Of a DNA stretch of 64,000 bases, positions 18,834-64,000 are shown piece after piece. A program made the translations under genes and the position numbers. Location: contig NC_057921.1 of the NCBI RefSeq assembly GCF_018873765.1, positions 66,701,557 to 66,765,556 of the forward strand, written 5' to 3'. The DNA is from Telopea speciosissima (lineage: Eukaryota > Streptophyta > Magnoliopsida > Proteales > Proteaceae). Under the pieces are notes generated by a model. That model saw nothing but the letters and a program-made list of their open reading frames with translations. It was not told the origin of the DNA and searched no databases. The number at the start of each line of letters is the position of its first letter. Position 1 is the stretch's first letter.

Positions 18834-19526
18834 CATCGTCTCTGTAATTAAGATCAATGTCTCCGTAAGAAGTCATGATTTCCATCGCTTCGACCGTTCC
18901 CTTGGACTTAAGAGGATCGTCAACTAGCTCCTTCGAAGTGGAAGTGCATAGCTGGGGTAATACTTCCTAAATTTCGCTGAATGATTCAGATAGGCTCAAC
19001 ACTTTTCTCTTCATATTAGGTTTCTTTTGCTCTGGTCCGAATTTATATTCTCAAAAACAAAAGATGTAACAATGGCGGGAATCATGATAAATGAAAGAAC
19101 ATAATTATGATCAAAGAAAAACACTACACACAGATTTCGAATCGTAGATATGAAGAACCTCTTACCTCTTAAGGAATTTTTTGATGGCTCGTCGAAGTCG
19201 GTCAGAGACTATGCGAATCCGCTCTGCTTCGCTGCGTACCGAATGGTTTCTCCCGTCAAAACCTTCGGAGCTGTTTCAGGTAACAGAGATGCCTTAATAG
19301 ATTTCCGCATGTTCAGTGTTCACTTTGCCTTCCCCATGAACTTGAGAGTTGAGATAGCCTTCTTAGCACGCGCGCGCGCGCGACGCGAGTTCGTGTTTTA
19401 GGCATCAGGGGTTTAAGCCCTAGGATGGATTTGGCTGGCAAGGAAGGTAAAGAAACATTTTGACAAAATGAAAAGACTGAAAACACCCTAGGATTTGGTT
19501 TTCCTTCTCCAGCCTATTTGGCTAAA

Positions 19527-19693
19527 GGGAAGTAGTTTTCTGTCTAAGAGTGGGGCCTACGCCAACACTCCTATGTGTCTATCTCTCTTCCTCAAAACAA
19601 GGGGGCAGAGGTGTCTTTTCATATGGGGAGGAGAGAGATAGACTCATGCGAGTGTTGGTGTACGCCACACTCCCGGACAAAAAACTTTCTCCC
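19527..19693. repeat. foldback MITE, family A copy 1
   Basis: About 65 bp at each end are inverted repeats: GGGAAGTAGTTTTCTGTC... with CCAACACTCC and GTCTATCTCTCT, against the reverse complement of the right half. A loop near CAAAACAAGGGGGCAG joins them. Other copies are at 49760-49925 and 51488-51659. Confidence 0.75.
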
Positions 19694-22758: not shown

Positions 22759-23492
22759 TGTTAGATTAAAATATACAGTGATAAATCCTATCACTATCAT
22801 GCCCATATGAACCTTAGAACATAACAGTAATGAAAATAGAAAGGAAGGGATTGTACCTTTCACTTTCGTATGTTAATGAAGAATAATAATAGAATCATAA
22901 TAATGATAATGCCCAGTACAATCTCCTTCTTTAATCTGCAGCCTTAGACCAATAAATCTTGAAGGGATCTTCTGCAGTCTTCCGTGTTCACACTAAGCAT
23001 TATCATTATTATTATTCTATTATTATTCTTCATCAACATACGAAGGTGAAAGGTACAATCCCTTCTTTTTTATTTCCATTACTGTTGTACTTTAAAGTTC
23101 ACATGGACATGATACTGATAAGGTTTATCACTGTATATTTTAATCTAACATCTAAATCTAAAGCATGGTTTCAAAAATCGAAATCGACCGTAATTAATCC
23201 TATCAATCTTTGTAGAATTTGTTCTCATCAATCCCAATTACTTAGTTCTGAATGGAATAGGCACTAATCGATTTGATCCCCCAAACCCAATTTTTGAAAC
23301 CTTATTCTCAAGTATGTTATTTGCGTAAAATGAGAGATATTTTAATTTGGCTCAATTAAACTCAGTTTTATCCCAATAAAATGAGTTCGCTAAATAAATC
23401 ATTATTCTCCAATTAATCGGCTCTATTTAAAATCATCTCTTTTTATATACTTAAAGCCATACATATATCTTTTCATCATTTTTTCTGATTCG

Positions 23493-38613: not shown

Positions 38614-40201
38614 TCAGAAAATTCTGATTGTCTTTCCCATTGTACTCTTTAGATATAAGCACCGTACCTGATTCAGGTAACAAACAAGGGTGAGAACTCA
38701 ACAAGAAATACACCGATATCGTACGCAAGTTGAAAAGAAACAAGACAAGGAAGTTGACACTGAGCTATACTTACATTTTGCCAATTCTTTTTCAACAGGG
38801 AGACAAGGAAGTTGACACTGAGCTGCACATTCTGGAAGACTTGCTTCTCTTCCATGCCACAGTTCCCCACAGCAACTCCCATGCAGAGCACTTTCTTAAG
38901 CTGGAACTTAACCATGGCCATGGTCTCATTCACCTTTGACTCCAGAGACTCCTGGTGGGAAACCAGTGTAGGAAACTTACCAGCCTTGTTCAGACCTGGA
39001 CCAAGAAGCCTAGGGATCTGCTTGATAATTGCCTCTGAAGCAAGAAAGGCATGGTACTTCTTTGCTAGCTTCTTCACCAGCTTCTTATTCTTGTTCATCT
39101 TCTTCAAAGCCTCGACATCCATGGACTCCAATCCCATCCTCTCTGCCTACACATCCAAAAAGAATAAAATGTATATCAATTGGGTTTATGAATCCTGTGT
39201 GTCTAAATAATATTTAAGTTGGGAGTACAGGTCACACCTCCTCGACATGCTGGGCATCTCCAAGCATGCATATCTTCATTTTGGGGCGAGGGATATGAGG
39301 CAATTTCACAGCACCACTGAAACGCTTATCCTTTTGTGGGTCATAGTTCTTCAGCCCAATTTGAAGCTCTATTGTCTCAGTGAATTTGCGGTTCTTATCC
39401 TTTGCAGCACCCATGACCTGGCCAATGGCCTCCCTCAGAACATCACTCTGAAGTTTACTGCAAGTAGGAACAAAAACAAAGAACCCAAATAATTGACTAC
39501 AATGTATAGGTAAGTTCAAAAGCATCCCAAAAAACCCACTCAGTACAGAGAAAGACACATTCACAGAGATAATCAGGCATCATGCATAACCTGTGTAATG
39601 CTTCATCGTCAGAATAAGACGGGGCAAAGAAATGCCCAGTGCATTACAAGTTCACAACTAGGGTGGACGTGGGAAACACAATTAAATTTGGTTCAAGGCA
39701 TAAATAATCTGTTCAATGGAATATTATGAAGAAAATGGTTGCCAGGCTCACGCTCTCCACTTAAGAAAGGGTAAGTACAACAAAACCTTGAGAGGGAGGA
39801 GAAGGCGCAGCCTGATGAGAGTAGGATAGCATATTCCCAACTGATTTGATTTGATTTGATTTCATAGTTGTCATGGGGCCTACACAAACCAAGGCGATCG
39901 AGGGGGGGCAAAAATTAAGGCAACACCAGCAAGGTGCCAGGGCGTCATTCCAGACAAAGCTGTCTCCACACTCTGACTACTATGTTTGATTTAAAATTCA
40001 AAAAGGACTTGCATCTTTCATCGAACAAATAATGGTCACGAAGCACAGCTTAAAATATTTATGCCCTGACATTGGATGCACATATTTTGTACGACTCATG
40101 CTTTGAAGTTCATGTTACATGAAAGCATCTGCCTAACACTTTAATAATCCTTATATTCTAAATCCTCAAGAAAAAAGGCAACCATGAGCACAGACATAGA
40201 C

Positions 40202-42723: not shown

Positions 42724-43413
42724 TTTTTTTTTTGGTACAATAAAGATTTATTGATGAGAATCATGTGTATAGCCAATGGCTTCAGATAAACAAAGATCAT
42801 CAAGCCACGGAGTGCTAATCGACCAATCTGTCATACACATGATAAACAGGGCCTTCCTTGCTACGGCATCTGCAATTACATTCATAGCCCTTGGAACAAA
42901 AAGAAAAGAAACAGATACAAAAGTAGAACATAGCTCACGAACATCTTCAACGACAACTGCAACATCAAGCGGCGGAACACGATTAGGATCTTCAATAAAG
43001 CTAATAATCTCCTTGTTATCTGATTCAACAAGGAGATTTGTGATTCCTAATTCACGAGCTTGCATTAGTGCTTCTCTAATGGCTAGAGCTTCTCCTGGGA
43101 TTGCAGAGGATACGACCTGGGAAATAGAGAGTGCCTTTAGAGGACGTCCATTGTGATCCCTAAAAATAATTCCTAGTCCGCCAGCAGTATCTCCTTGAGT
43201 ATTTGCAGCATCACAATTCACCTTTATAAAACCCAACGGTGGTGCTGACTGGAACTCAAGAAATGCTCTTTCAGCTGTAGAGATAACCTCAATTGGACTC
43301 CAATCCTTTGTTTTGAATACTCTGTTATTTCTAGAACGCCACAAATACCAACATATAAAAGAAGCCCGAGAGAGAGATTCTCGAGCAACCTTCTCATCTT
43401 GGCGTATCAATAG
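42724..43413 (-). mobile_element. 5'-truncated L1-type LINE with RNase H domain, polyA and target duplication
   Basis: CCCCTTCTTGTC (42712-42723) and CCCCTTTCTTGTC (43414-43426) flank the element as a target duplication differing by one base. The minus-strand sequence ends in a poly-A (T-run at 42724-42733). The frame 42748-43410 is open from the truncation point and encodes the plant L1 C-terminus. It has FICWYLWRSRNNRVF, then an RNase H-like domain with Asp in IKVNCDAA, Glu in GEALAIREAL, Asp in LLVESDNKEI and the RAMNVIADAVA segment. Truncation at the 5' end is usual for LINEs, so this copy is dead. The open frame and clear flanks suggest a fairly young insertion. Confidence 0.88.
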
Positions 43414-43738
43414 CCCCTTTCTTGTCTAGCTGCAGCACTGCACGTTCGTTCCCCATACAACTTGCTAACATAACCCTCTCCTAATATTAAAGAGTGGGTG
43501 GGTCGTTTAGTAAAACCGAAAACCCGTTTTTAGGTAATTTGATAAATAATTAAAAAAAATCTGCTCTCCACGCGCTTTTCTTCACGTTTTCCTGTTCCGT
43601 TCGATCCTTTTGGTTTTCTCAGCTTGCTTGTGGTTTTGTATATCATAGGGTTCGAAAGTCTTCCCCCAACCCAGAAAACCTCTATTTAGGTTGCGAAAAA
43701 TCCTTACAGAAGAAAATTTTCAAATAAAATCTTTGATC

Positions 43739-44907: not shown

Positions 44908-45990
44908 AACTCAACTCAGCCTTATCCCAACTAAATAGGGTTGGCTGCATTGATCTTTTTTCTCCAATCTTCTCAATTCAAAGCCATAATTGTTTCTAGT
45001 CCTAAGGTATGCATGTCTTTCTTCACCACTTTTCCTAGAATCATTTTAGGCCTACCCCTGGCTCTCTTAGCACTTTCAATTTGGATCAAGTCACCCCTCA
45101 GCATTCAAAGCCTCTGTTGCACATGTTGATGCCACCTTAATCGACTTTCACTCAACTTATCATGTATTGGAACTACTCCTAAATTAGCTCTAATTTGTTC
45201 ATTCCTTCTTTATCATTTCAAGTTTTGTCATTCATCCATCTCAACTTCATCATTTCAGCCACACTAAGTTTGTTTATATGTTGTTTCTTCACTGCCAACA
45301 TTCAGCTCCACACATCATTGCTGGTTGTATAACTGTCTCATAAAAATTTCTTTTGAATTTTAAAGGAATACGTTGATCACACAACACTCTTGATGGACCC
45401 CTTCACTCCATCCATTCCATTCTAATTCTTTGTGCAACATCGTCATCTATTTCTCCTCCTTTATTTATGATTGAATCTAGGTACCTAAAATTTTCACTTT
45501 GCAGCCTATCATCAATTTTCACCACCTCACTTTCATTCCTATTGTAACTAACATTACATACTGTAAGTGTTAGAAGAAAGAAGATGAGAAGAGGAGAAGA
45601 ATTAGAACTCGGTAGCTTTGGAGTATCTCACATAATGTGTGAGCTCCACATTCATTCACTATAGATAATGACTTAAGAGACACAATAGGAAATAAGAAAA
45701 CTGAAAAATACCTAAACTACCCCTGAACATACCGAGACATAAAACAGTCCCTACTAACACCATGTATTTTGGTTTTGTTCTTTTGATCTTAAAACCTTTG
45801 GATTCCAAGGTTGATATCCATAAGTACGACTATGTATTTATTCCTATTATTGTTTCATCCACCAAAACAATCATCAACAAATAGCTTACACCATGGGATT
45901 TGATCTTGAATGTCTGTAGTCAACTCATATATGATTAGGGCAAACAAAAAGGGGCTTCGAGCTGGTCAATATTGGTAATCTTGGATTTGG
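44908..45990 (-). mobile_element. RTE-type LINE fragment, interrupted by an LTR
   Basis: The plus-strand left edge CAGCCTTATCCCAACTAAAT is the RTE 3' terminus. Read on the minus strand, the sequence then gives pieces of the reverse-transcriptase C-terminus: ESAKRARGRPKMILGKV, SRLRWHQHV, RWMDD, MCGAECWAVKK and SENFRYLDSIINK..GEIDDDV. Stops and shifts break the frame. Right of the nested LTR (45568-45759) the fragment continues with degraded sequence around the catalytic motif (a GTTTCATCCACCAAAACAAT on plus, about 45852). Confidence 0.8.
45568..45759. mobile_element. solo LTR-like insertion nested in the RTE LINE
   Basis: It starts TGTTAGAAGAAAG and ends CCCTACTAACA, so the ends form a TGTTAG/CTAACA inverted pair, and it interrupts the RTE frame. 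Its minus strand resembles the copia LTR at 59508-59733 in general design (TGTTA start, CTTCTCC-rich end, TAACA). I see no matching 5-bp duplication, so the exact borders may be off. Confidence 0.5.
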
Positions 45991-47499
45991 TTATTTGATG
46001 GGCTATGGAACAAGGTGCTACATTTCGGAAATTGGCCTTCTCGGATGTTCAACCACGGTCATTTGTTAGACGTATGCTGCCACTTTCAGTTGACAGATCT
46101 TAATTCGTTTTACACCCTTTGTTTCTAGGTAAATGTTAAATTATTTATGGTAAAGTAAATGCATATGTCACTTTAACTAAAATTTTGTTTGCTATCCTAA
46201 TGAATTATATTAATCAATGTGTTACATGCATCCCATAGAGTGTGATATATAGTATTACTGTGTCTTGTCTCTATGAATATGGAGATCATTGTCTCTACTT
46301 GTATATAGGTCCAACTGCAACATGTGTGTTGGTCTTTAATATCACTGATAGAGAACTATGTCTTAGATTCTTAGTTACATGACAGGTAAAACTCATATGA
46401 GGAACCCACTTGTTTGGGTTAGTAGATGTTAATTGTTTTTCTATCTTTTGCTCCTGTGGATTGTTGGTATGTCTTTCTATTAGTTGTTTCAACATTTTCC
46501 AAAATTTAAAATCATTCGATAAAGGCATTGATCGTGGTCTTTTTGCTTGAGTTGTGCTGAGAAAGCTTTTCATTGTCGTGAAACTTTAATTCTTTCAGCG
46601 GCAGGTGGTTGAAATAGGTTTTGCATATGTTTTCTGCCTCATTTTGCTTAACATATATTTTTTTAGTATGATTCATTCTTTTGCTTCTTTTGGATATTCA
46701 AGTTAAAATGTGTTTTTCATTTTTATTATTTCACTTGTCAGAAATATAGGAAGTTGCTATTAGTGGATGAGAAAATGACTGTCTACCGTTTACCAACTGG
46801 TATTGTTATCTGAGTCATTTACTTTTTGGGCTGTATGTTTCCTTCCCAAGCCTCTGGGCCTTGGGCCTTGAATCTTGGCCAATATAGTGAATGAGAAAAT
46901 GCAATGCAAATTCTAAGTGTCCAGAAGTGCCATTTTTTCATAATTTCATACTTTTGGTTTTGGTCCGTAATTCTTAAATATGATAGCCATCCGAATGTTT
47001 TGTGAGAAATCCCAATCCGATTGTAGGATTTGTTTACCTTGTCCGTCCAACACTGGCAGTTTATTAATGGGGTAATGCAGGAGCATGATCACCACCATTG
47101 GATGTGGTTTGGTCTTTTATTTTGAGCATATTTTGATAGTATTTGGTTATGGGCTTTTCTTTTAAGGAGTTTTATTTGTAATAGGTTGCACAAATTTAAT
47201 CTTTTAATTTAGTATTAGTAGTGGGGCCATTGGTTCCAAGGATTCCTAGATGGGGATCTTATCTATAGCTGGAGATTTCTGGTGTCCTTATAAATAGGTC
47301 GTTTGGGGCTTAACCAACATATATGGACGATACCTTGAGGAGATCAGCCAGAATATTTTGAGATCTTCCATGATCTAGATGAGATTTGCGTGGTAAATAT
47401 TTTATTGAGATCTTCCAGCTACTTGATGGGGCCGTGGGTTTTAATTTGTGGCATCTTTATTACTTATTTGGTTACCTTAGTCTATAAGAGTTTAGAGGG
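45991..47499. other. spacer without a supported gene
   Basis: No domain-bearing frame is seen. Near 47140-47400 a TATA-like TTATAAATAGG and LTR-like composition occur, but no element ends could be found. Confidence 0.35.
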
Positions 47500-47654
47500 C
47501 AGACCTCGGCACGTTTGTAAGGTTGCGATCTTGCGATCTTGTGGTCGCGGGTTTGAGTTGGGAAACAGCATTTCCGCAAAACAGGGGTAAGGCTCATACA
47601 TTATGATCCTTCCCTAACCCCGCGGTGGCGGGAGTCTCGTGTACCATGCTTTTT
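47500..47654 (+). mobile_element. Au-like SINE
   Basis: On the plus strand GACCTCGGCACGTTTGTAAGG stands at the head and a B-box-like TCGCGGGTTTGAGTTGGG follows. Then come GCAAAACAGGGGTAAGGCTC and GCGGTGGCGGGAGTCTCGTG, ending in a short T tail. Order and wording match the copies at 11871 and 36540. Confidence 0.7.
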
Positions 47655-49759
47655 AGTCTATGAGAGTTTAGTTGTCATTTCTTGTAAGCTTCTACTTTCT
47701 ATTTTGATAACTATTACTTAGTTACGAAGAGTTTCTTGTTATGTAATGTTGCTTCATTATTATAAATAAAGAGGGTTACCACCTAGGCATGATTTGATGA
47801 ATGAAAATTAGTTGATTTAGTTATTTTGAGGCAGTTGCCTATCATATTTCTCTCCCTTATCGAGAGAAATAGCAGCCAAATTATCTTGATTCTTATTATC
47901 CTCTCCTAGAAATGAAATGAAATGAAGGGTGGTGGAAGGTGAAGACACTGGCCAAAAGTTTGGAACTTGCGAGATATTAAGGATTGTTGATGAATGTTGT
48001 GGGAGGTTAGTAAGACAGCCCACATGCTGTGTATGGTCAATGATGCTGATGCTGGACAGCTGGGCTTTGGTACAGAATTAATGTAGGACATAGGAATGTT
48101 CTATTACATTACCTCATCTGAGTGTAGTGTTTTGGCTTACTTAATGTCCAAGGTTTTCAATTGAGAATTAATGATGACTTGGTTCATGTTGTAAATAAAT
48201 CTGGATGAAATTCTTGGATTTAAAACCTTCTTTGATGTCAGAAATGTTAAATGTTTACTGCCGACTTTGTATGTTGCATAAGTAACTGATATCCTTGTTG
48301 CTATGATAATGAATGTTAGTTGTATCATCCATGGACATTCTGGTTCTAGGGTTATATGAAAATTTTCAACCAAGCATCTTTCTCCATGGAGAGTGGTGAG
48401 GTTCTGAAGTTAGTTGAGACAGTAAAATGTTGGTTATGAAAAAGGAGTTAGAGGAGGGCAGTAGAAAGGACAATGTTGTTTGAAAGCAGTGTATTAATTT
48501 TTGGGAATGATTGGGTCAGTTTCTAGGACACAATCTGTTCAAGTGGGGCAATAAGCTAGGTGACACTTTGTGGAAAATCATGACAGTAAGTATTAGTGGT
48601 ATGGTAAAGCTTTCAGGCATATCTGGATTATATATTACTCAAATCATCTCTGCTTTTTTGACATGGAATTATTGCAAACTGATTCAAAATTGCAAACTTA
48701 ATTTGCTGATGGAAATCATACTAGTGAGTTGATTATGTGAGAGGGCCTGAGGGAAAGTTCCTTTCATGTTCACAAGCCTCTAATGCCATTCTAGTGTGTT
48801 TTTGGAGTTATATAATTTCTTTCTAAGACACTTCCTTTAATATTATTCATTGAATTAATAGGAGCCCTAAGGAGACAAAGGAACAAGAATTGAATTTAGA
48901 TTGCTCATGTACTTTTTTCTCTCAGGGGATTGAGAGTGAGAATGCCATTCCTCTCAAGCCTTGGTTGTACTGAGAGATGGAGGAGGCTGAACCAGATGCC
49001 CATGGCATCATTTTGAGATTGAGAATGCCACTGCGTGTATATTTTTATGCCCTGCGAGGGCATCATTATGATCGGACCATGACTGACCAATAGTGTCCTG
49101 GCCCTACTTGTTGGGTTAACCGGTTGACCAGTTGGATCGTCTGCAGCCTTTAGAGTTTAGACCACTAAAGGTTGGGTACAATCGGACCAAAGCACACTGG
49201 CTTGGATGGTCCAACAAGATTAGGAACTCTCACAAACCTTGGATTAATCAATCAATTGGATTAGATGGATATCAACCGACTCTAAAATAAACAGTATTAT
49301 AAAAATAAAATTGGTATTTTATTACTTTCAAATGGTTTTTAGTAAGAGATAACTTGGTTTCTTAATAAATTAATTTTTTCCTACTTTAAATTAAGGTACG
49401 TGTTTTTTTTCTGCTGATTTTAAAAGTATTATTAAACCTTAAATCCGATTAATTCTTGAATGTATTCACATCTTCCTTTTTTGTTTTTTTCCCTCCTCCT
49501 TATGCCCGTATCTACTAACTATGGCCTTTTTCCCCATCAATTTATTAGGTAGGCCTTTTCGTCAGATTATTAACGAGAGACTATTAGGTGGGCCTAGATT
49601 GGATCCAGAATTTAGAATTGGTGAGGTCTGACACCCTGGACCATCTACCTTTCCTGGTTGACCCACTCAAACCCAACTAAAAATCTAAAATTGTTTAGTC
49701 TTTTATATTCTTTATTATTATTACTAATTTTTTTTTTAGGTAAAGGGTCATTATTATTA
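47655..49759. other. spacer without a supported gene
   Basis: Moderately AT-rich sequence with no recognisable domain on either strand. (ATT)n runs border the MITE that begins at 49760. Confidence 0.4.
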
Positions 49760-49925
49760 GGGAAGCAGTTTTCTGTACGGGGAGTGTGGCCTCTACTTGA
49801 ACTCCCATGAGTCTATCTCTCTCCTCTTTAAAACAAGGTGGTAGATGTGTTTTTTCACATGGGGAGGAGAGAGATAGACTCGTGGGAGTGTTGGCGTAGG
49901 TTATACTCCCAGATCTTTTTTCCTT
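49760..49925. repeat. foldback MITE, family A copy 2
   Basis: GGGAAGCAGTTTTCTGTACG opens the element. The right half, reversed, repeats CGCCAACACTCCCA(C/T)GAGT and CTATCTCTCTCCTC. (ATT)n tracts lie at both borders, suggesting insertion into a microsatellite. Confidence 0.7.
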
Positions 49926-51487
49926 ATTATTATTATTAGGGAGAGGGATATGAAGCATGCCGTCTTATGCTAGTGAGGGCACAGTGTGTGTGGGATGGAG
50001 CATCATGTAGGAAGGGCAGGGGTCATTTCAAATGGGAAAGAGAGAGAAACATTATGTGTCAATGCTTGTTAGTTTGTGTCATGCAAGTGATGTGTCCAAC
50101 CTTTTTTCTTAGGCCCCGTTTGTTTGATGGATAAAAATGCAAAATTTGTGAGGGTGGGTTCTATATGTTGTGGGTTAGATTGACAAGAAAAGGAAAGGAA
50201 AGGAAATAATGGAATATGCATTTTGTAATGGGGTGGGATTTAATGGGAGAGCGAGGAAATGGACATGGGGTGGAATTCCATGGGAAAGAAATGAAATAAG
50301 AAGAGAATGGAAATTAAGTCAACACAGACTTCACTTCCCATCTTTTGAGTCTCTGAGCTGCCATTCTTTCAATACCTACAATTCATCCATTTCTACAATT
50401 GGAGGATAGAATGGAAATTAAGTCAACACAGACTTCACTTCCCATCTCCATGTTAACCAACCGGTATCATGTTCATGGGGATTAATAATCTTAGTTCCTA
50501 AAATACCCTTAATTGTCATTGGTAAACCCTAGTACTTGGTGTTTGAGCCAAACTTTTTGGTAAAAAAACATATGAAAATATGACTTGTATGTCTGGAAGT
50601 TTCAAGCCAAGTATGATTCAACATTAAAAAAAGATTTTTTTGAAAAGCAAACAAATATGGAAAAAGTTTTCGTCTATAAGTCACCGGATGTTGATGATGA
50701 TCGTGTTACCTTTGCAAATTAAGCCACCCAAAGAAAAAATAATTTAATATAAAGATGGGGAGCTGTTCTTGTGTCGCAGCGCAGCTTGCGCCTAGACACA
50801 TTGGGGTGGGCGCAATGATCACCCTGCCCCCTGCACAGGCTGTGCTGTGGTACAACGAACATTCTCCCTATAAAGATTTACATGATTCGATAAGATAAGA
50901 TTTCCAATGTTGATTGTGAGATGACAGGTTTTACTAACAATGGAGAATAGGGTCACAATCACTCGTCTTCAAGCTTCCTTGTTAAGAGAAAATTCCCTTA
51001 CTATGTGTTAAAGGATCCGATTCTTCTCCAATGAGCCCATCACCTAGGGAGTGCCCAATGAACATCTGACGGCTGGGCTGCAGGCTGTCGAATGCCTCAT
51101 TGGGCACTCATTGTGTGGATTCCTCGTTCGAAAGAAGTCCAACACGTTGTTAACGATCTTTCAGAATCATCCCACAAACCCATGTTATAGAATCAAGCAT
51201 TATACGACCAATAAGAAGCACTAGTTATGGTAAAAGGTATCAGATCGGATATATTGGTCAATCCATATCGATATTGATCGTGCCTGATATCAATACATGT
51301 CTGATCCTATCATTGTGAAATGATTTTAACTAAAGGAAATTATGTTCAAAAAATAATTTTTAATCAAAATTGAGAGCCAAACCATCCGATACAACTGATC
51401 CATATCAGTATCAGTATCCCAATACTGTTTTTAAAACCTTGCCATCGAGACCAATAGCGATACGAATCCCAATACTCTTTTTTTTTT
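49926..51487. other. spacer with foldback and direct repeats
   Basis: A direct repeat of about 40 bp (GGAAATTAAGTCAACACAGAC, then TTCACTTCCCATC) occurs at 50307-50346 and 50411-50448. Near 50770-50870 lies a palindromic repeat built around GCGCAGCTTGCGCC. No gene is seen. Confidence 0.45.
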
Positions 51488-51659
51488 GGAAGTAGTTTTC
51501 TATCCGAGAGTACAGCCTATGCCAGCATTCTGATGAGTCTATCTCTCTCCTCCTCAAAACAAGGGACAGAGATATCTTTTCATATGAGAAGGAGAGAGAT
51601 AGACTCATGGGAGTTTAGGTATAGACCACACTCTCGGAGAGAGTTCTATTTTCACTTCT
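51488..51659. repeat. foldback MITE, family A copy 3
   Basis: GGAAGTAGTTTTCTATCCGA opens it and the right half is its imperfect reverse complement, with the family words GATGAGTCTATCTCTCTCCT and CATATGAGAAGGAGAGAGAT. Confidence 0.7.
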
Positions 51660-51951
51660 TTTTGTTTTTATTTTTTTTAAAATCAAACAATGCTTCTCTG
51701 TACCTCTCTACCCATAGGCCATAGGCCCACCCTTATTGATGCTAGTGCAGCATGCTTCAAGCATTCAAGGAAAAGAAAAGCTGGATTTTAGTATGGGGGG
51801 GACCTTTTGGACACTCTCTACACTTGACAGTGATGGTCTCAGGTCTATTTACTTCTACGAGAGAGAACGAACGAACGAATGAACGAGAAGTAGGGTTCGT
51901 TGAGTCAAAAGAGGGAGAAGAGCTGAAGTCATAGCTGAGAAACCTTTTGGC

Positions 51952-51958
51952 TATAAAG
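51952..51958 (+). promoter_or_regulatory. putative TATA box of the MIR828 transcript
   Basis: TATAAAG stands 109 bp upstream of the mature miR828 sequence, which would place the transcription start near 51985. Plant MIR genes are Pol II units with TATA boxes, so spacing and motif fit; the start itself is inferred. Confidence 0.45.
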
Positions 51959-52053
51959 GAGGGTTCCAGTTCCAGACTTCCAGTTCCAGGGGGCAAGTGC
52001 AGCAGGCAGGCACAGTAGTATGGGGTTTTATTTCTTTAAATTCCTCCTTTTTT

Positions 52054-52170
52054 TAATGTTTCTTGCTCAAATGAGTATTCCAATGGTCGCAGCCATTCAA
52101 TTCATTCACTTCTCATGTTTCCAAATTTTTGTCTCCACCTGCTGCGATACTCATTTGATCAAGCAACGTT
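52054..52170 (+). ncRNA. MIR828: microRNA precursor miR828
   Basis: The 22-nt mature sequence at 52061-52082 (TCTTGCTCAAATGAGTATTC followed by CA) is identical, as I remember it, to the known plant miR828. The opposite arm, 52145-52166, pairs with it over the whole duplex with three mismatches (t61-c164, c66-t159, c80-c145 in window minus 52000) and one G-U pair, leaving the 2-nt 3' overhangs expected of Dicer-like products. The arms are separated by a loop region of about 62 nt, and pairing extends past the duplex base (GTT/AAC). miR828 is a 22-nt trigger that cleaves R2R3-MYB mRNAs and TAS4 RNA and starts phased siRNA production, restraining anthocyanin and trichome pathways. No protein gene overlaps it. 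Confidence 0.93.
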
Positions 52171-52559
52171 AGACAGGAGGTGTTCCTCTACTCTGATTCA
52201 TCACCGGCCACCTCCCTCATCAGATCTCTCTCTTTCTGTGTAGAATATTTGTATCTGTAATTTTTCTATTAATACTGCTAGCTGTAGCTAACACTATTAA
52301 TGTTTCTTTTAAAGCTTCCAGTTTTCTTCATGCAGGATTGGTTTTGAGGTAGTATCTCAGCAAGTCCAGGAGACAGGAGTGGGTGAGCCTAGGCTTGCGC
52401 GCCCATCTTCTTGTTCTCCTCAAGAATGATAGATTTGGAGATTAATTTGATGGGGTTCTCTCTATCATCATCATCATCATCTTAACCACCGGAGGATATA
52501 AAACCGTACCAATATAGATCTCTGGCCCAGAATCGAGATATTATATTGGTGAATGGTGA

Positions 52560-52918
52560 GTAGCTTAAAGAGATTTGTGCTTTAAGAATTGATCACAAAA
52601 ATGATGTGACCTATTATGGGGGTTGGGTGTTGTGCGGGTATAGTGTCTGTCTTGAGGGTTATATGGGTATTTTAGTAAATTATCTCTGTATAGGGTTTCG
52701 TTACAAATTTGTGATGGGTGTTCTTTATCTGTAAGTAATCTGGATAAGCGGCTGTAATCCTATTCTCCATTGATTGTAAAGAAGATTTCATTTCACCCTG
52801 GATGTAGATAATTTTATCGAACCACATAAATCATTATGTGCTTTGTGTGATTATTTGTTTGTTATTTCCATTGGTTTTCTGCATCGTTTTAGGTTTTTGT
52901 TTTCTACAATGGTATCTG
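52560..52918 (+). mobile_element. copia-type LTR relic with primer-binding-site-like end
   Basis: The stretch TTGATTGTAAAGAAGATTTC, then CACCCTGGATGTAG, CGAACCACATAAAT and TTTCTGCATCGTTTTAGG, is the 3' part of a common plant copia LTR. It is followed by TGGTATCTG at 52910, close to the TGGTATCAGAGC primer-binding site. A related but diverged stretch is at 53840-54125. The left border is not defined. Confidence 0.5.
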
Positions 52919-53190
52919 TCTACCTACCTTCATTCTAACCATGTTATCTCCTTCCCTAAAACAGCATACCTCTTCTTTACTATCATGATGGAGTTTCCAT
53001 TAATCCTTGATTATCTATCATTATTGGGAACGATCGAATACCGGCCCTAACCCTTACGGCTTACCTCAAAGCAACTGTGCCCTAGCCAACACTGAATATG
53101 CATTAGTTTTGAAGGATACTGACATATATGGTCAAGACCTGACATTTTGGCAACTCCAAAGTGTGTTCTTGGGTCCCATCCGATAGGGAT

Positions 53191-53370
53191 CCAGATCTTC
53201 TACGGTGCAGCTTCCCGTCCGGCCTATGCTGTGGAGACATAGGGTCATGCATAATGACCGTCTTGCTCCTGCTCGGGTAAGAGGCTAAGGCAGGGGTAAA
53301 GCGGTCATTACGTGCATAGGCAGGACTGGACACTGCATAGGCCGGATGGGACACACCATAGAGGATCTGT
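53191..53370. repeat. foldback MITE, family C copy 2 (180 bp)
   Basis: CCAGATCTTCTACGGTGCAG followed by CTTCCCGTCC, and the reverse complement of ACCATAGAGGATCTG, form the inverted ends. The length equals that of the copy at 22579-22758. Confidence 0.65.
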
Positions 53371-53590
53371 TTCCCATCCAACATGTACAGCCTTGTTGAT
53401 CTTCGGCACAAGAATGTTTGATTAGTGAGCTATTACACACTCTTTCAAGGGTGGTTGCTTTGATTATCTCTCTGAACCCTTCTTCCTTTATCATTGAGCG
53501 GTCATTTAAGGATAAAATTTTGCTAAACTGAACAACAAGAATTTTCGTAGTCCTCGTACATGGTCCAATCATAGCCCACCAAGTGTACCC

Positions 53591-53656
53591 CAATTTATTG
53601 CAGCGCACGGGTGAATGCCCAACATATGGTGAGCATTCATGCGCTGCAATAAATTG
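53591..53656. repeat. 66-bp hairpin with 17-bp perfect arms
   Basis: CAATTTATTGCAGCGCA (53591-53607) is the exact reverse complement of 53640-53656. Inside, GTGAATGC pairs with GCATTCAT across an ACATATGG loop. The stem is short for a MITE and of microRNA-hairpin size, but it resembles no microRNA I know. Confidence 0.7.
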
Positions 53657-53839
53657 CTCAACACATATGATGAACTAGCTCTGAATTCAAGAGGCATTTC
53701 ACCAGTGTATGAAAATCGGCGGATTCTACAGTCTGTTCCCAAATTTCAAAACAGTACATTTCATCCCTAACCACCACTAATCCGTCGTTGAACCTACCTA
53801 CCTGCAAGCAAATGGGCATTTTTTATTTTTCCAATTAGT

Positions 53840-54125
53840 TTAAAGTTTGAGCAGCTTTGTCTTGTGTGGTTGAAGAGTCACCATCCTCCTTGTTGGGGGT
53901 ACAACGTTTTGTATTCAGTTCGCTTGAATTAGTGAGTTGAATGCGAAGGGCCATTTATAGGTCGCGACTGTAAATTCATTTTCCGTTGATAGTGAAGCAG
54001 ATCTAATCTCACCGTGGACATAGCAATCTTGTCAAATCACTTAAATCCTTGTATGCATTATATGATTGTTTGTTTGTTTGTGATTTCCATTCTTTTCTGC
54101 ATTGTTTTAGGTTCATGTTTTTCTT
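53840..54125 (+). mobile_element. second copia-type LTR relic
   Basis: TTCCGTTGATAGTGAAGCAG, then TCTCACCGTGGACATAGCAAT, AAATCCTTGTATGCATTATA and TTCTGCATTGTTTTAGGTTC, parallel the relic at 52560-52918 in the same order. The two could be the LTRs of one collapsed element or separate insertions. Confidence 0.5.
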
Positions 54126-54895
54126 CACATTTGTCCACCATACAGATAAGCGCAGAGTAGTCTAAGGTTGAGTATGAACCTCATGCCCTTCTGCATGAGG
54201 ATCTGATCCCATTTGCTTTGGTACAAGACCTCAGAAGTATAATCCACCAGAATCCCTATTGCACACCCTATTGAAACTTGCAATGCTTATGCTTTCTCCA
54301 AGAGTGAAAGTTGTCGACCTGCTTGCTTCTCTCAGCCTTGGAGGTGGAGGAGGGTCTTTGTCAAGATCAAATTTATAGATTTGAAAAAGAGGAAACCCAA
54401 AACCTCCTGGTCGAGTGGCCTTTTACACTCCACGCGTTTACCAACTGCCAGTTTATGGGGTTGAATTCTCCCAAGATCCTTAGCTCTGTATCTTTGGCCA
54501 GTTTAAGCCACTTCTCTTGCGAAGTGCCACATTGAAGCCCCCCTAAGAAAAGGTTACATGTCGCCATTGAACATTACTTCTACACAAAATTTATGGTCAT
54601 TACACGGTGTCGACATCGGCCCACCCGATTTGATTAAATAGCCCCATACTTCTGAGAGTAACAACTGAGGAGTATAACTTCTTTCAGGTAGTTTGTTCAA
54701 ATCGCTAAGCAACTAATGAAGTGCCTAAATGATCAAAACCAAGGACCAATTTCTCTTATTCCATGGTGAGGAGAGATTCTCTTCATTCACACATCTCACT
54801 CTGATTGGACTGGGAAAAGATATTTCAGAACCATCAACAATATAAGACTCTTCAACAATACAAGGCAGGAGTTAATGATGTCTTTCATTCTTTCC
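54126..54895. other. spacer without a supported gene
   Basis: No domain is visible in the frame at 54311-54535 or its antisense. The stretch separates the LTR relic from the SINE. Confidence 0.4.
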
Positions 54896-55104
54896 TTTTT
54901 TTTTTTTTGGATATATTCTACTCAAGGGTCCACAAGCCAACTACAAGCTAAGGGGAAGGTTAAGACAAGCGCACAATCTACAACTAAGGGGTGCCTTTTT
55001 TGGCACAATATGCAATCCAGAAGAATCGATCCCTTGACCTCCTGGGGGGCATGTACTCAACTAACAATGCCCCCAACCAACCGAGCTAACGGTTGTTTGC
55101 CTTT
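54896..55104 (-). mobile_element. tRNA-derived SINE with poly-A tail
   Basis: On the minus strand a Pol III A box (TTAGCTCGGTTGG, plus 55077-55089) and a B box (GGGATCGATTC, plus 55023-55033) lie about 45 bp apart, as in tRNA genes. The body continues about 115 bp to a poly-A tail (T-run 54896-54908). It is a different family from the Au-like copies. Confidence 0.65.
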
Positions 55105-56378
55105 GTCCACAGTTCAATCACAAGAAAACAACATTACCAAAAAAAAAAAAAATCACAAGAAAACAACAAATGATACTCAAATCGGATCCAACCTATCTCG
55201 ATTACTACCTCTATTAATCTGATCAAAATCTATCAAACCCAAATAGGATTCCAACCGATTAGTATAGGATTACAAAATCTATCCCTTTTCATCCTTAACT
55301 TGTCTAACCCAGACCTTATCCATCCCTTTACATCCCTAACTTGTCTAACTCAGACCTTCATTCACTGTCAATCCATCTCTCTCAATTGTCTTAATTCTTT
55401 GTCATTCTCTAGAACATGTGAAATCTTCAAAGGACCCTCAAAACGTTAGCTCTTTAATTTTTTATTATTACTTAGATATGCATTCCAACACCCCCCCCCC
55501 CAAAAAAAAAAAGAAAAAGAAAACCTGCACCTCATCGTATTTTTTTCCTTTGTTCATTTATCATATTGTCTTTTTAGGGAAAAAAAAAAAAAACAGGGAC
55601 TACCTAGGCACGTGGCTCCTGCAACTAGACACAGGAGCACGATACAACACCATCCTGCCCCAAGGAAATAAAGATAAAAAAGGCATCTTTGTTGAAGCCA
55701 CTGTGTGCACTCTCATTGGTGCCTGCGATGGTGCACGCGCTATCAGACCAGACAGCACCATCATTTTACTTCAAAGCGGACCCTTTCCATATAAACAGAC
55801 GTGAAGGTTCAATATGTCAGATTAAGCGCATTTGCACCTTGCATCTAAGGCTTGTACCACCAGCTGAATGCATGCCATGAGCCAAATGGCACTTGACCGT
55901 ATCCTTCTCTAATGATAAAAAACCTGTAATTCGAAGATGTTGGATGTCCCTTACGGCTTCACCATAATCCTCAAGCAAGGGCTTCTCCCCAACTCTTAAC
56001 CCAGACTAACACTATATTTATGAGACATGGATTGCGATGGAATTAAGAGCGAAGACGCAGTCTTTTGGACCCTAAGTATCTATGCAGGAATTACTACAAT
56101 TCAAAGGGTACCAAGGCCTCGGGCCTTCCGGGAAATGGGCCCGTGAAATCTATTATCTATAACATACTTACACAATGAAATGTGCATACCAAATGCCATA
56201 GTACATCAGATAACCCTCGCTCCCCAATCCTCAATTTTTTGCTTCTCAGAGAAATTTGTTCCCAAACACAAAGCAACCAAGCCAACAATGGAATGAATTC
56301 TCTTTCTTGTCCATCTTGTTGGCCCTGAAAACTGATATAACAGCCTCCAATATATAACATAATCCCTGCGAGTTAAAA
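55105..56378. other. spacer and ABCF 3' flank
   Basis: No gene is seen. C-, A- and AC-rich homopolymer tracts lie near 55491-55520 and 55578-55594. The ABCF 3' UTR should occupy the right end. Confidence 0.45.
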
Positions 56379-58736
56379 CTAAGATGATGCCTTGAGTATC
56401 TTCTTGTAATCCTGGAAATTCCCATGGAATGGTGAGATGCTGCCTTGCGATACCACCCATAGTTCGTCCACACTTCCAGATATTAGATGCTCATCATGGC
56501 TCACCTGGAAGAATTAATAAGTGGGAATCGAAGTTAGGAGCATATACACGATTCATACAAATCAAGGGGAGGAATGATTCGTAACAGCGAAGAGCATGAC
56601 TCAATGCTTCCAACAAGTAGGAATACAAAAAAGATAAGGGCATATTGTAATACCATGAGTACACCTCCTTGGAAAAGAACGAGACCTTGGATAAGTGCCT
56701 CCACAGCATCCAAATCCTGCACTCCGAGGTGAAAAAAAATATGAAAACCATCACAAGTTTTCTGGCTACTAGGAATAATTTCACACGATGTAATTAGTTT
56801 CCCAACCAGAAGTAATTTCTACGGATGCCAACATAAAGAACCATGCAGAATAAGATCTCATCGTTTCCCTCCAACCAATAGGACCTAAATAGAGCATCAC
56901 CCAGTCCCAGAATTATTACAAATGAGCATTCCTAACCATGACAATTAAAGAACCCATCCAGATCCATACAAGTTTTTCTATTGCAGTTCTCGATGAATAA
57001 AATCATCTGCAACCAACCATAAGCACACAATCTGGACAGCAGATGGTGAACCCCTGAAAGTTTGAACAATTCTTTTACAAAAGAATTTCAAACATCCAAA
57101 TCCAGGAATCCAGAATTTAGGGTGGACCAGCACCAAAATGGCATGAGCTCAGAATTGAATCAATCTTAATTGTTGCAAGACCACACCTCTTGGCAATGTA
57201 TTTGATCATGTCTCCAGTTCTCATGTATTTACATTAGCATTCATACTGCAGTTGTGGACATATCATCCATTGAATTAAAAATCTCTTATTTTTTCTCACT
57301 TTTTTTTGGGTACTTTCTCAGTACAACCCAAATCAATTTTGCCCTTTCTACTTTTAACGTACCAAAGTGCTCCCCCTGGTACAATCATTGGTCCCCATTG
57401 CACATATGAACCAGTGAATGCTTTAAAATCCATTTATTCAGTTTGAGTACTCATAATTTACTCATATTCAAATGGATCAAGCTTGTGTTACAAAACTTTT
57501 GATTCAACGAGCCAACTAGCACTAAAATCCGACTTGTATCAGTCAACATCAAGAAAGTGAACACTGATCAATACAGACATCAATTTGTTAGGATTTGTTC
57601 TCATAAGTCCCATGTGATCCTTTCCCTACTTAAGTTGAGATGCAATGGATTATGCAATATTAAGATTGAACACATGTAGCTAGTATCAGACATAAAACAT
57701 ATGGAGGGGGGGGGGGGGAAGGAAAATAAAGTACATACAAGATGGTTTGATGGCTCATCAAGCAGAATAATATGTGGTTTTTTGAAGGTTATCTTGGCAA
57801 ATGCAACTCTGCTTTTCTGTCCACCTGAAAGAGCAGTAAAATTCACCAATAAAATACAACTGGGAATATTAAAAAGAACATAGTATAGCTTAATATCAAC
57901 ATAAATATACCGATGTAATCTGACTAAACCGAAGCCCAAGAACGAACTCATCAACTATATAACTAATGCAAGTCCACTTAATTTAGTAAATAATTCATTT
58001 TCAGTAATTGCACTTAATTTTCTGCAGTTTTCATTATTAATATTTAGCTATAGACTTCTTCATCCATGGACCAATTAAAAAAGGAGTTCAGTTTTAAAAA
58101 CTTTCTACAACCAAACTCTGCTCTTGTTAGAACTCCAGTGCTTCCCCCAGTTGCTGTCTCCCCACCCAATTAAGTGAGCCAGCTTCATGGGAGTAATTAT
58201 TATCTAATTAAACTTCTGCATCATACCATTACTATCAGCAAGGAAAATCATCAACTTCCCAAAAGCACCATCACCCATCTCATTTTTACGGGTAGAAACC
58301 ATTGGCATTTAAGTTCATTTGTTTCCTCGAAGCGAAGAGGACACTAAACTTGATAACCAAGTTACAAATAACACTGCATTAGGAAAATCCTGATGCATCC
58401 AAAACAACAACCAAGGATATTCTGGTGAAGACACCATTCACGATAATGCTACATGTGAAAACCAAGATATAGGAGTCAAGTGTAATTATCTAAATAACAA
58501 AAGACTTGTGTAATTGATACAAAAACTAGGTACTCTAACCCCAAAAGACTACTTCCGTTCTAAATCAAAATTGAATTCTTGCTAATTGATTGGTCCAAAT
58601 TCACCCTCCAAACACATCAGAAATAGATGAAGTTTTAGCAATAGTCACCTGACAAAGTGTACATAGGTTGAAGAGCCAGATTGCCCGTAACACCAAAAGA
58701 ACCCAGATGACCTCGGAGCTTCTGTTCAGGCACTCC
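56379..58736 (-). CDS. ABCF-family ATPase, last four exons (GCN20/ABCF3-like), partial
   Basis: ABCF proteins carry two ATPase domains and no membrane span, and act with ribosomes or in stress signalling through GCN2. Four exons join in frame with GT/AG borders: 58649-58736, 57739-57824, 56654-56716 and 56379-56504, giving the last 120 residues. They hold the ABC signature LSGGQKSRVAFAK, Walker B with D-loop HIILLDEPSNHLDLDA and the switch His in LMVSHDEHLISGS, then WVVSQG..PFHGNFQDYKKIL and the stop. The opening GVPEQKLRGHLGSFGVTGNL matches the second nucleotide-binding domain of ABCF3. The first half must lie beyond the copia element starting at 59508, or is missing. All visible exons are intact. 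Confidence 0.9.
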
Positions 58737-59507
58737 CTGCAAGAAGAAAAATAACTTTGCATATGATCTCATATAATAAAACGATCAATATTAACATTCA
58801 TGAGAATCAGTATATAAGAGTCTTGATGAAAATAGCAAAACGCTTTTCAAACTCTCTTAAAACAATTCATAGCAAAAGCACACAATTTAATGTTTTGGTA
58901 AGTTTCTTCCCATAGAATTTAGCTGACTAGGCATGTGAGTGGACAGGTAGCAGTCAAGTCTTTAAATTTTGCAAAGTATAGCCGCTATAACACTGGATTA
59001 GGATAATTTCCCACGATCTTAACTAAGTGATAGTAATAATAGATAACACACATTCTTTAAAGGCTAAGAACAAAAGATTATCATACAAAATCCAATTGCC
59101 TAGGGTGCATAGTGGTGGAGGGCTGGTCAGGAGAAGAGGATGACTCTAGGAAGAGATTTTGCAGGGGGAGAGGAAGGACATAACCACACGCTCACGTAGG
59201 CAAAAAACCCAATATTTTCTATTCAATCTTCACTGTGTCCATCAATGGGTACATGCAAGTATTTAAAGAGAAAACAAACTCCTAGTTAGACTCTAAAACT
59301 GAATTAACTTGTAACCAAACTCTATCTATGTCCCAAGTATTCAACTCAGAATAAATAAATAAATTACTTCCAACCCTTAGTGGACCAAAAATCCGGGTTG
59401 GACTGGTTCCGTCTGGGTTTGGGTTTCCAAACTTGGTCATGCTGGTCCAACCAATCAAGTGCTACTGCCTCACACAGTCCAGAGTCCAGACTACAGAGCC
59501 AACTCTG

Positions 59508-59733
59508 TGTTAGATTTTAGGTTGAAGAAGGAGAAGAGAAGAAAGAGAAGAGAGCAGCTACGGTTTTGGTGTTCAAGTGTTATGTCTCTAACCTAGAGAC
59601 TAACATGCTTATATTGAAAAGAATAGTAAATTACACCTAGGCCCTTGGCCTTATACAAATGACAAAAAATAAGAAAATAATACAAGGGGATATTTACACA
59701 TATACCCCTGATACAATACAGCCATTCTTAACA
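59508..59733 (-). repeat. 3' LTR of the copia element, 226 bp
   Basis: On the minus strand it begins TGTTAAGAATGGCTGTATTG and ends AACCTAAAATCTAACA, with a TGTTA/TAACA inverted terminal pair. A CT-rich stretch (CTCTTCTCTTTCTTCTC) lies near its end. The polypurine tract adjoins it directly. Confidence 0.85.
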
Positions 59734-59740
59734 CTCCCCC

Positions 59741-62700
59741 TCAAGCTGGGTGGTATATGTCATACATACCCAGCTTGTCTAACATAAAACTAAAGTGATT
59801 GGAGCCAAGTCCTTTGGTGAAGATATCAGCCACTTGTTCATTCGTCTTCACAAAGGGAGTACAAATACCCTTAGAGTCTCTCTCCTTAATAAAGTGTCTA
59901 TCAACCTCAACATGCTTCGTCCTGTCATGTTGAACTGGGTTGTGAGCAATACTAATGGCTGCCTTGTTGTCGCAATATAGACTCATAGGTTCAGTTGTCT
60001 CAAACCCCAATTCTTGGACAAGCTTCTTCAACCACAAGACTTCACACACACCATGAGCCATGGCTCTAAATTCTGCTTCAGCACTTGACCTGGCTACCAC
60101 TGGTTGTTTCTTACTGCTCCAGGTGACCAAATTGCCTCCAATAAAGGTACAATATCCAGATGTGGATCTCCTATCAGAGATAGACCCAGCCCAATCAGCA
60201 TCTATATATACTTCAATTCTCAAGTGACCATTCCTAGAGAAGAGAAGACCTTTTCCAGGGCATGACTTCAAATACCTGAGGATCCTATAAACTGCATCAA
60301 GATGTCCCATTTTTGGTGCATGCATAAACTGACTCACTACTCCAACAGCATAGGTGATGTCAGGTCGGGTGAGTGAGAGGTAGATAAGTTTACCTACTAG
60401 CCTCTGATACTTTTCAACATCCACCAAAGGTTCACCACAATCTTCCCCTAGTTTGTGGTTTTGCTCAATAGGGGAGGAGATTGGTTTGCATCCTAAGTAG
60501 CCTGTCTCTTTAAGTAGATCAAGAACAAACTTCCTTTGGCAAACATTGATCCCTTGCTTAGATCTTGAAACTTCAATCCCCAGAAAATACTTCAATAGAC
60601 CAAGATCTTTGATCTCAAACTGCCGAGCCAAATAAAGCTTAAGCTTTAAGATTTCAGGTTCACTGTTTCCCGTGACCACAATGTCATCAACATAAACAAT
60701 GAGAGCTGTAATAGTGCTGCCCTTCCTCTGTATAAACAATGTGTGGTCAGCTTGACTTTGAGTGTAGCCATTCTGTAGGAGGGCTTGTCTGAACCTCTCA
60801 AACCAAGCCTTAGGAGACTGTTTGAGTCCATAGAGAGCCTTCCTAAGTCGACACACTTTCCCATTATCACCCGGATGCTTGAACCCAGGAGGAGAGTATA
60901 TATATACTTCTTCTTCTAGGTCACCATGTAAGAATGCATTCTTCACATCAAGTTGGTACAATGGCCAATCAAGATTTGCAGCCATTGAGAGAAGTACACG
61001 AATGGAGTTATGCTTGGCCACTGGAGCAAAGGTTTCCTGATAGTCAATGTCATACACCTGTTTATACCCCTTGGCGACAAGTCTTGCCTTATACCTTTCC
61101 ACAGTACCATCAGACTTGAACTTGACTGTGAATACCCATCTGCACCCAACCGGGATTCTCCCTTTAGGGAGTTCAACAAGATCCCAAGTGTGATTCTTCT
61201 AAAGAGCCAACATCTCTGTGTTCATTGCTTCTCTCCATTTTGGATCTGCCATAGCCTCTGTTACATTCTTGGGAATAGAGATGGATGAGATAGCCACAGT
61301 AAAGGCTTTACCTGTAAGGGAGATAGAATCATAGGAAACAAACTTGGCAATAAGATTAGTGCATGCCCGAGTTTCCTTTCGGTGAGCAATAGGAAGATCT
61401 AAGTCTGAGAATGGAGAATTAGAGGAAGGTATACCTGTCTTAACTGATGAAGGCTCAGGATGAGGAGACGAAGAAAGATTTTGGCAGGTCTTCTTTATAG
61501 GAAGCCATGAAGGAGGATTTCTCCTATCCTTCGTATACACCAATAACTCCCCCTGTTCTCTGTTTTCCTGTGCACTAGGAGGCTCCCCCTCAACAACAAT
61601 ATCCATAGAATTTTTCTTCCCTTTGTCAAGCTGGAAAGGAGAAATAGGAACAAGAGAGGAGAAAGGAAATGACACAAACTCAGGAACCTCTTCACCTTTA
61701 ACACCACCACCACACTCCCCCTGAAGAGGGGACTGAAAATACGAAATGTTTTCAAAGAAATGAACATCCTTGGAGAGGAGCCACCGATGGGTAGGAAGAT
61801 GATAGCATTTATACCCCTTTGAGGTGGAGGAATACCCAAGAAAGATGCACTTCAGATTTGCTAATATGGACATAGCAAATACACCCAAACACCTTTGGAG
61901 GGAGAGAAAAAGAAGAGGACCTTGAAGGCAAGAGAGCAAGAGGAACCTGGAAGTTCAAGACACTAGAAGGCATGTGATTAATAAGAAAGACAGCAGTGAG
62001 TAAAGCATCAGACCAAAAAGTTTTTGGAACATGCATGGTAAACCAAAGTGATCTAGCCACTTCAAGGAGATGGCGATTTTTTCTTTCAGCCACCCCATTT
62101 TGTTGAGGGGTATCAACACAAGCCACCTGATGAATAATGCCATGGTCAGAAAAAAAGGTTTCCAAACCACTATACATATACTCCCCACCTTTGTCTGCGC
62201 GGACAATTTGGATCCGAGTTTGAAATTGGGTATACACTAACTCATAAAAGTTGGTAAATGCAACATGGACATCACTCTTATGTTTCAAAAGAACAACCCA
62301 AGTAACTTGAGAAAAGCCATCAATAAAAGAAACAAAATAGCGGAAGCCACGCAAAGAAGTAACAGGGGAGGGCCCCCAAACATCAGTATGGATAAGATGA
62401 AAAGGTGAAGTAGATATATTACCATTAGATGCATAAACTGTTTTACAACTTTTGGCAAATAGACAAGGTTCACAATGAAAAACATGCGAGACAGGAAAAG
62501 AAGTAAACAAATGTGGCAACTGTTTCCTCATAACAAAAAAGGAGGGGTACCCCAAGCGACGGTGCCATAGCAGAATATCCTCCTGAGTACGTCCACTTTC
62601 TTGCCCACAAACATAGGACTGAGCTTGCAGAACAGGGGAAGTACCAGTCTCCAAAACATACAAGCCATTAGCTTCACAACCACTGCCAATCACCCTCTTC

Positions 62701-63494
62701 GTCACCAAATCCTGAAAAAGACAATGGGTAGGAAAGAAGGTGACAAAGCAGTTCAAAGATCTAGTCAATTGACTAACAGAAAGAAGGTTAGTGGCAAAGT
62801 TGGGAACATGAAAAACAGACTTCAAGGGTAAAAAAGGTGCAACCTGGATATCTCCCTTACCAGAAATAGAAAAGAAGGTGCCATCAGCAATTTTTACCTT
62901 ATCTTTCCCAGAACAAACAGAATAGGAATTATATAGCTGTGACCTACCAGTCATATGATCTGTGGCACCTGAGTCAATGACCCAAGAGGTGAGGCCGGAG
63001 GAGGAAGCCTGCAGTGCAGTGGAAGAACCGGTGGCAGAGGAACCTGAGGAAGTGGCAGAGGAACCATCCAAATGAGCCACAATCCGGCGAAATGCAGCAA
63101 TGTCCTCCTTGGAAAGAGAGGATTCATCAGATTCAACAACTCCAACATGAGCCTTAGGCCCTTTCTTCCGCTGTCCTCGCCCTCCAGATGAACCAGCAGG
63201 GGGCTTCCCATGGAGATCCCAGCAAAAATCCTTAGTATGCCCATTCTTGCCACAATGGTCACATAGGAATCGACCCTTCATAGCTCCCTTAGCAACCTCC
63301 TTATCGGCCCCCTTGGTGGAGTCCTGAGGGATGGAAGAAACAAGTGCAAAATACTCAACAATGGGGGCAGTCCCTATAGCACCCCTACGGGTCTCCTCGT
63401 TGTAGATATCCACACACCTCCTCCAGTGAGGGAAGACTTGGACGGCCAAGGATTTGCACCCTAAGAGGCTCAAAATCAGCATTAAGACCTCCAA
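59741..63494 (-). pseudogene. copia pol polyprotein: zinc knuckle, protease, integrase, RT, RNase H (broken)
   Basis: The frame 61809-63494 carries the nucleocapsid zinc knuckle (CX2CX4HX4C in CDHCGKNGHTKDFC), protease DSGATDH, the pre-integrase zinc segment and an integrase core with HTDVWGP and PQQNGVAERKN. In that core the usual DNGGEY reads DKGGEY. The frame ends near 61809, and the downstream part is in another frame (61199-61939), so one or more bases were gained or lost near 61875. A TAG at 61199-61201 then precedes the reverse transcriptase, which has YVDDIV and FLGIEV. RNase H with DADWAG, SSAEAEFRAM and YCDNKAA extends to the stop at 59741-59743. The RT/RNase H half is open for 450 codons. 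Confidence 0.88.
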
Positions 63495-64000
63495 GAAGAA
63501 ATAAGACCCTCTCTCTCTCTCTCAAACAATCGATGCACCTTGACCTCATCAGCAGGGCATAACTGGAGATCTCTATAATGGTCATACTCTTCCCACAGGC
63601 CCACAACAAGGCTATAGTATTCAGAGATACTTCTCTCACCCTGGCGCAAGCTGACAATCTATTGAAGAAGTTGGTACACCTTAGTAGAGTCCCCAACCCG
63701 ATCAAAAATACGGGCCACACTATCCCAAATGTCCTTGGCAGTCTCCTTGCCCATAAACCTTCTTCCAATTTCAGGCTTCTTGGAGAAAAGAAGCTAGGCC
63801 ATAACCAGGGAATTCTCAGAGTCCCACTTGGGATACCCTTGCTCAGTCGGAAGAGGGGCCTGTATATTACCATTGATGTAACCGATCTTTCCCTTACACC
63901 GGAGAATCAATTTCATGGACCGGGACCAATCCAAATAGTTGTGGTTCTCAAGTTTGGCAATAGGGAGTTGGATATTGGGACTCTCAAAGGAGGAAGGAAG
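63495..64000 (-). pseudogene. copia gag region, broken by two stops and a frameshift
   Basis: The minus strand gives the gag N-terminal pattern (LENHNYLDWSRSMKLILRC, then KGKIGYINGN, WDSENSLVMA, KDIWDSVARIF). In-frame TAG codons stand at 63794-63796 and 63659-63661, and a GA-run (63510-63525) shifts the frame. A further shift lies where the frame passes into the zinc-knuckle part near 63440. The start codon is outside the window. Confidence 0.8.

Follow-up and report, generated by a model that had tools for sequence, protein, structure and literature searches.

An apparently intact MIR828 locus in the genome of the waratah, Telopea speciosissima

In other plants, MIR828 tunes the regulators of red pigment. 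It is reported that miR828 cuts R2R3-MYB mRNA and TAS4 RNA, setting off phased siRNAs, and that its sites in MYBs lie in the R3 end region (PMC3446319). The lily MYB12 is one such target (PMC7661471). In Nelumbo, which belongs to the same order as Telopea (Proteales), miR828 sites were reported on MYB PHAS loci together with a putative TAS4 locus (PMC4254747). In grapevine, miR828 was found to be highly active even though it hardly ever turns up in libraries (PMC6404619), so its absence from a small library would not be decisive. An earlier view held that miR828 arose in dicots only (PMC3446319), which was contradicted by the later report of the family in gymnosperms, Amborella, monocots, and dicots (PMC7194464). 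The excerpted literature on MIR828 and inverted duplication does not give a MYB-derived origin of MIR828. Searches of open-licence literature, judged by title for Telopea, turned up no account of MIR828 in Proteaceae, Macadamia and Telopea included.

Here an apparently intact MIR828 is placed in the genome of the waratah (Telopea speciosissima, Proteaceae), in a window (the whole stretch of DNA that was analysed) of 64 kb. Judged by its sequence, the locus is apparently an intact copy of a family that is already well known; it is an added member of that family and a finding of low surprise, and it very probably represents a conventional MIR828 gene. The waratah is a red-flowered Proteaceae, and some Proteaceae grow on phosphorus-poor soils. 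Because of these features of the host and the phosphate link of the miR828-TAS4-MYB loop, the annotation is a useful one and offers pigment studies a locus that can be tested. The loop has been reported to be active under phosphate deficiency (PMC8877309).

Mature sequence and precursor hairpin

The precursor and its mature product were located as follows:

52053 to 52172, plus strand: MIR828 precursor hairpin (RF01026 match; fold z of −6.99 over 52040–52180)
52061 to 52082, plus strand: mature miR828, 22 nt, on the 5' arm (0 mismatches to the canonical sequence; letters as in grapevine MIR828A)

All 22 letters at 52061–52082 agreed with the canonical 22-nt miR828, and a search of both strands allowing up to three mismatches returned this single site in the window. 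The mature sequence that the sequence-only reading had recognized is therefore present exactly, at one place. One close described form is grapevine MIR828A, which was predicted without reads in that study and whose 22-mer, as printed, is letter-identical to that of the waratah locus (PMC2831844). The 22-mer also turns up in 15 papers of the literature searched. Grapevine MIR828B belongs to the same family, but its mature form as printed there is one letter off, and the window carries the MIR828A form. The exact 22-mer occurred in 0 viral contigs and 0 prokaryote genome contigs.

The Rfam model of MIR828 (RF01026) matched 52053–52172 on the plus strand over its full length (1–115 of 115) with a score of 77.4 bits, above the gathering score of 69, and an E-value of 9.3e-14. 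When 4227 Rfam families were compared with the whole 64 kb, MIR828 alone reached its gathering score. The locus resembles the Rfam family in its 5' arm, its unpaired 5' U, its stem pairing, and its full-length model match, and differs from the consensus in its loop, which carries insertions of 3 nt and 2 nt. The fold of 52040–52180, which had been proposed as a check, gave a minimum free energy of −43.2 kcal/mol compared with a shuffle mean of −20.7 kcal/mol (sd 3.2, n = 200; z −6.99), and 0 of 200 shuffles folded as well. The earlier description of a complete MIR828 locus is thus borne out, as the Rfam match, the exact mature 22-mer, the arm, the unpaired first U, and the hairpin all agree. 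Neither the Rfam scan nor the 22-mer search (up to three mismatches) indicated a second MIR828 in the window.

Two weaker Rfam hits were rejected. On the minus strand MIR828 reached 51.4 bits and thereby missed its gathering score of 69. A match to mir-4429 at 51912–51988, with 18.6 bits where 97 is the gathering score, was put down to chance. A tRNA search of the window returned none.

The miRNA/star duplex and a competing loop-side helix

The following segments bear on the pairing of the mature sequence:

52145 to 52166, plus strand: predicted miR828 star, 22 nt, in the family register (from duplex pairing; 19/22 letters as in the Rfam consensus)
52086 to 52093, plus strand: loop segment rivalling the 3' end of miR828 for 52141–52148 (from pair probabilities)

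In the family register, the duplex contained 20 opposed positions, with mismatches at miRNA positions 1, 6, and 20, a G-U pair at position 19, and no bulge. The Rfam consensus structure is likewise unpaired at position 1 (the 5' U) and position 20. The mismatch at position 6 is extra in the waratah locus: the star carries U at 52159 in place of the G of the Rfam consensus, which results in a C-U mismatch with C 52066. The base of the duplex was firm, with a pair probability of at least 0.98 for 52062–52163 in every parameter and temperature run.

The loop-side end differed from the family register, as a helix on the loop side of the waratah locus competes with the distal pairs. In the minimum-energy fold at 37 °C, 52086–52093 were paired with 52141–52148, which left the last 6 nt of miR828 free and made 52077–52085 bulge out of the miRNA strand as 9 nt with nothing opposite. 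The centroid fold left the last 5 nt of miR828 unpaired. A 9-nt bulge alone would exceed the usual limit on asymmetric bulges in miRNA duplexes. Under the Turner 2004 parameters at 37 °C, 52088–52093 had pair probabilities of 0.92–0.95, and the loop-side overhang pairs (52079–52146, 52081–52144, and 52082–52143) had probabilities of 0.03–0.06 because 52086–52093 paired with 52141–52148 instead. At 22 °C, with the same parameters, the overhang pairs rose to 0.55–0.59. Across four parameter sets and two temperatures (22 and 37 °C; 52040–52180), 52088–52146 beat 52079–52146 in seven of eight combinations. The exception was Turner 2004 at 22 °C, where the family pair 52079–52146 prevailed (0.587 vs. 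0.383 for 52088–52146). The printed pair values were unchanged when the stretches 51980–52340 and 52052–52173 were folded. Forcing five family-register pairs cost 2.9 kcal/mol. Consequently, the full star arm with correct 2-nt overhangs described in the sequence-only reading holds in the family register, with three mismatches, and fails in the 37 °C minimum-energy fold.

These probabilities could indicate that the locus is a misdiced MIR828 relic, in which the loop-side helix separates the 3' end of miR828 from the star, dicing is misplaced or inefficient, and miR828 is made from another copy. The low probability of the family-register pairs at 37 °C and the lead of the competing pair in seven of eight combinations are what such a relic would predict. 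We nevertheless regard it as improbable, given that the mature letters are unchanged (22/22), the duplex base is firm in every run, Turner 2004 at 22 °C favours the family register, and the five family pairs can be forced at a cost of 2.9 kcal/mol. Base-to-loop dicing is common in plants and would not need the distal pairs, so for a conventional MIR828 gene the competing helix is a caveat and not a refutation.

An open reading frame also runs across both arms of the hairpin:

52020 to 52172, plus strand: 50-codon ATG frame, probably chance

Position 52020 is the first ATG past 51980, and the frame opens with a hydrophobic, signal-like stretch. An ATG frame at least as long arose in 93 of 2000 shuffles of 51981–52200, and when the plus strand of the window was cut into 1160 overlapping tiles of 220 nt, 41 contained one as long. 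No candidate in a large protein set shared three 5-residue words with the 50-aa product. The frame, a candidate for a microRNA-encoded peptide (miPEP), is probably due to chance. We consider it improbable that the primary transcript of MIR828 doubles as a short mRNA whose translation or product influences dicing, or that the loop-side helix acts as a temperature switch on distal dicing.

Predicted working and targets

As a conventional MIR828 gene, the locus would be transcribed by RNA polymerase II into a pri-miRNA that starts near 51980, and DCL1 would cut the stem to release the duplex of 52061–52082 and 52145–52166. The 22-nt guide would then be loaded into AGO1 and slice R2R3-MYB mRNAs within the R3-coding sequence, along with TAS4 RNA if the species has TAS4. 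Slicing would lead, via RDR6 and DCL4, to phased 21-nt siRNAs, which may damp anthocyanin and related MYB programmes. For the waratah, we infer these steps, from the pri-miRNA and the DCL1 cut to AGO1 slicing and the siRNAs, by analogy, and the role of the 22-nt form as a trigger of phased siRNAs is a family property taken from the literature. Translated in one frame, the complement of the 5' arm gives WNTHLSKKH, which resembles the end of the R3 repeat in R2R3-MYBs. An origin of MIR828 by inverted duplication of a MYB was considered from this reading, which covers the 22 nt, and is not claimed. A search of the 64-kb window at up to three mismatches returned no miR828 target site.

Upstream region and genomic surroundings

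Upstream of the hairpin, a candidate promoter element and a foldback MITE were present:

51952 to 51957, plus strand: TATAAA, candidate TATA box (the sole TATAWA in 51660–52060)
51488 to 51654, unstranded: foldback MITE copy (inverted arms 51487–51556 and 51585–51654, 74% complementary)
19525 to 19695 and 49759 to 49914: other foldback MITE copies (82% to the upstream copy over 19528–19677 and 78% over 49761–49889)

The upstream TATA box that had been pointed out is present as TATAAA at 51952, though by itself it is weak evidence, since the plus strand of the whole window contains 92 TATAWA motifs. Eleven promoter patterns (MYB, bHLH, phosphate, and other) were sought in 51660–51950; nine were absent and none was tellingly above shuffles. 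A single E-box and a single GTAC occurred, which many shuffles contained too. PAP1 feedback on MIR828 has been reported elsewhere, and with no pattern above shuffles it is without sequence support in 51660–51950. The MITE, described earlier as lying about 290 bp from the TATA box, proved real: 292 nt separate 51659 from the box, and the element occurs in three copies in the window (~150–170 bp, pairs 78–82% alike), each with inverted arms. The upstream copy was self-complementary over 51499–51642 (71%, 144 columns). An effect of this copy on the promoter, as raised in the sequence-only reading, is conceivable.

A Pfam scan of 17 of the 28 stop-to-stop frames listed at ≥110 aa, supplemented by alignment for the laccase, identified the following neighbours:

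7656 to 10219, minus strand: laccase exons (Pfam and alignment)
38673 to 39579, minus strand: ribosomal-L1-type gene (Pfam)
42748 to 43425, minus strand: RNase-H-type reading frame (Pfam)
57601 to 57954, minus strand: short ABC-transporter match (Pfam)
59741 to 63521, minus strand: Ty1/copia-type frames (reverse transcriptase and GAG-pre-integrase; integrase core just below the curated score)

The spacer that holds MIR828 is thus flanked by the ribosomal-L1-type gene and the RNase-H-type frame on its lower-coordinate side, and by the ABC-transporter match and the Ty1/copia-type frames on its higher-coordinate side. Direct repeats longer than 71 nt were not reported in 45000–64000. With MITEs, Ty1/copia frames, and an RNase-H-type frame in the region, a chance or repeat-derived hairpin that merely resembles MIR828 might be imagined, but we give it almost no credence in view of the exact 22-mer, which was found in 0 of 100 shuffles, the Rfam E-value, and the lack of a second hairpin copy in the window self-comparison at E 1e-8.

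Elsewhere in the window, the laccase exon at 7656–8648 (minus strand) was identical to Telopea speciosissima laccase-6 at 316 of 321 residues. All five differences fell within the first six aligned residues, which is probably an intron read through. Separately, the 392 bp of 22759–23150 matched their own inverted copy at 79.5% in 400 aligned columns and are perhaps another foldback element.
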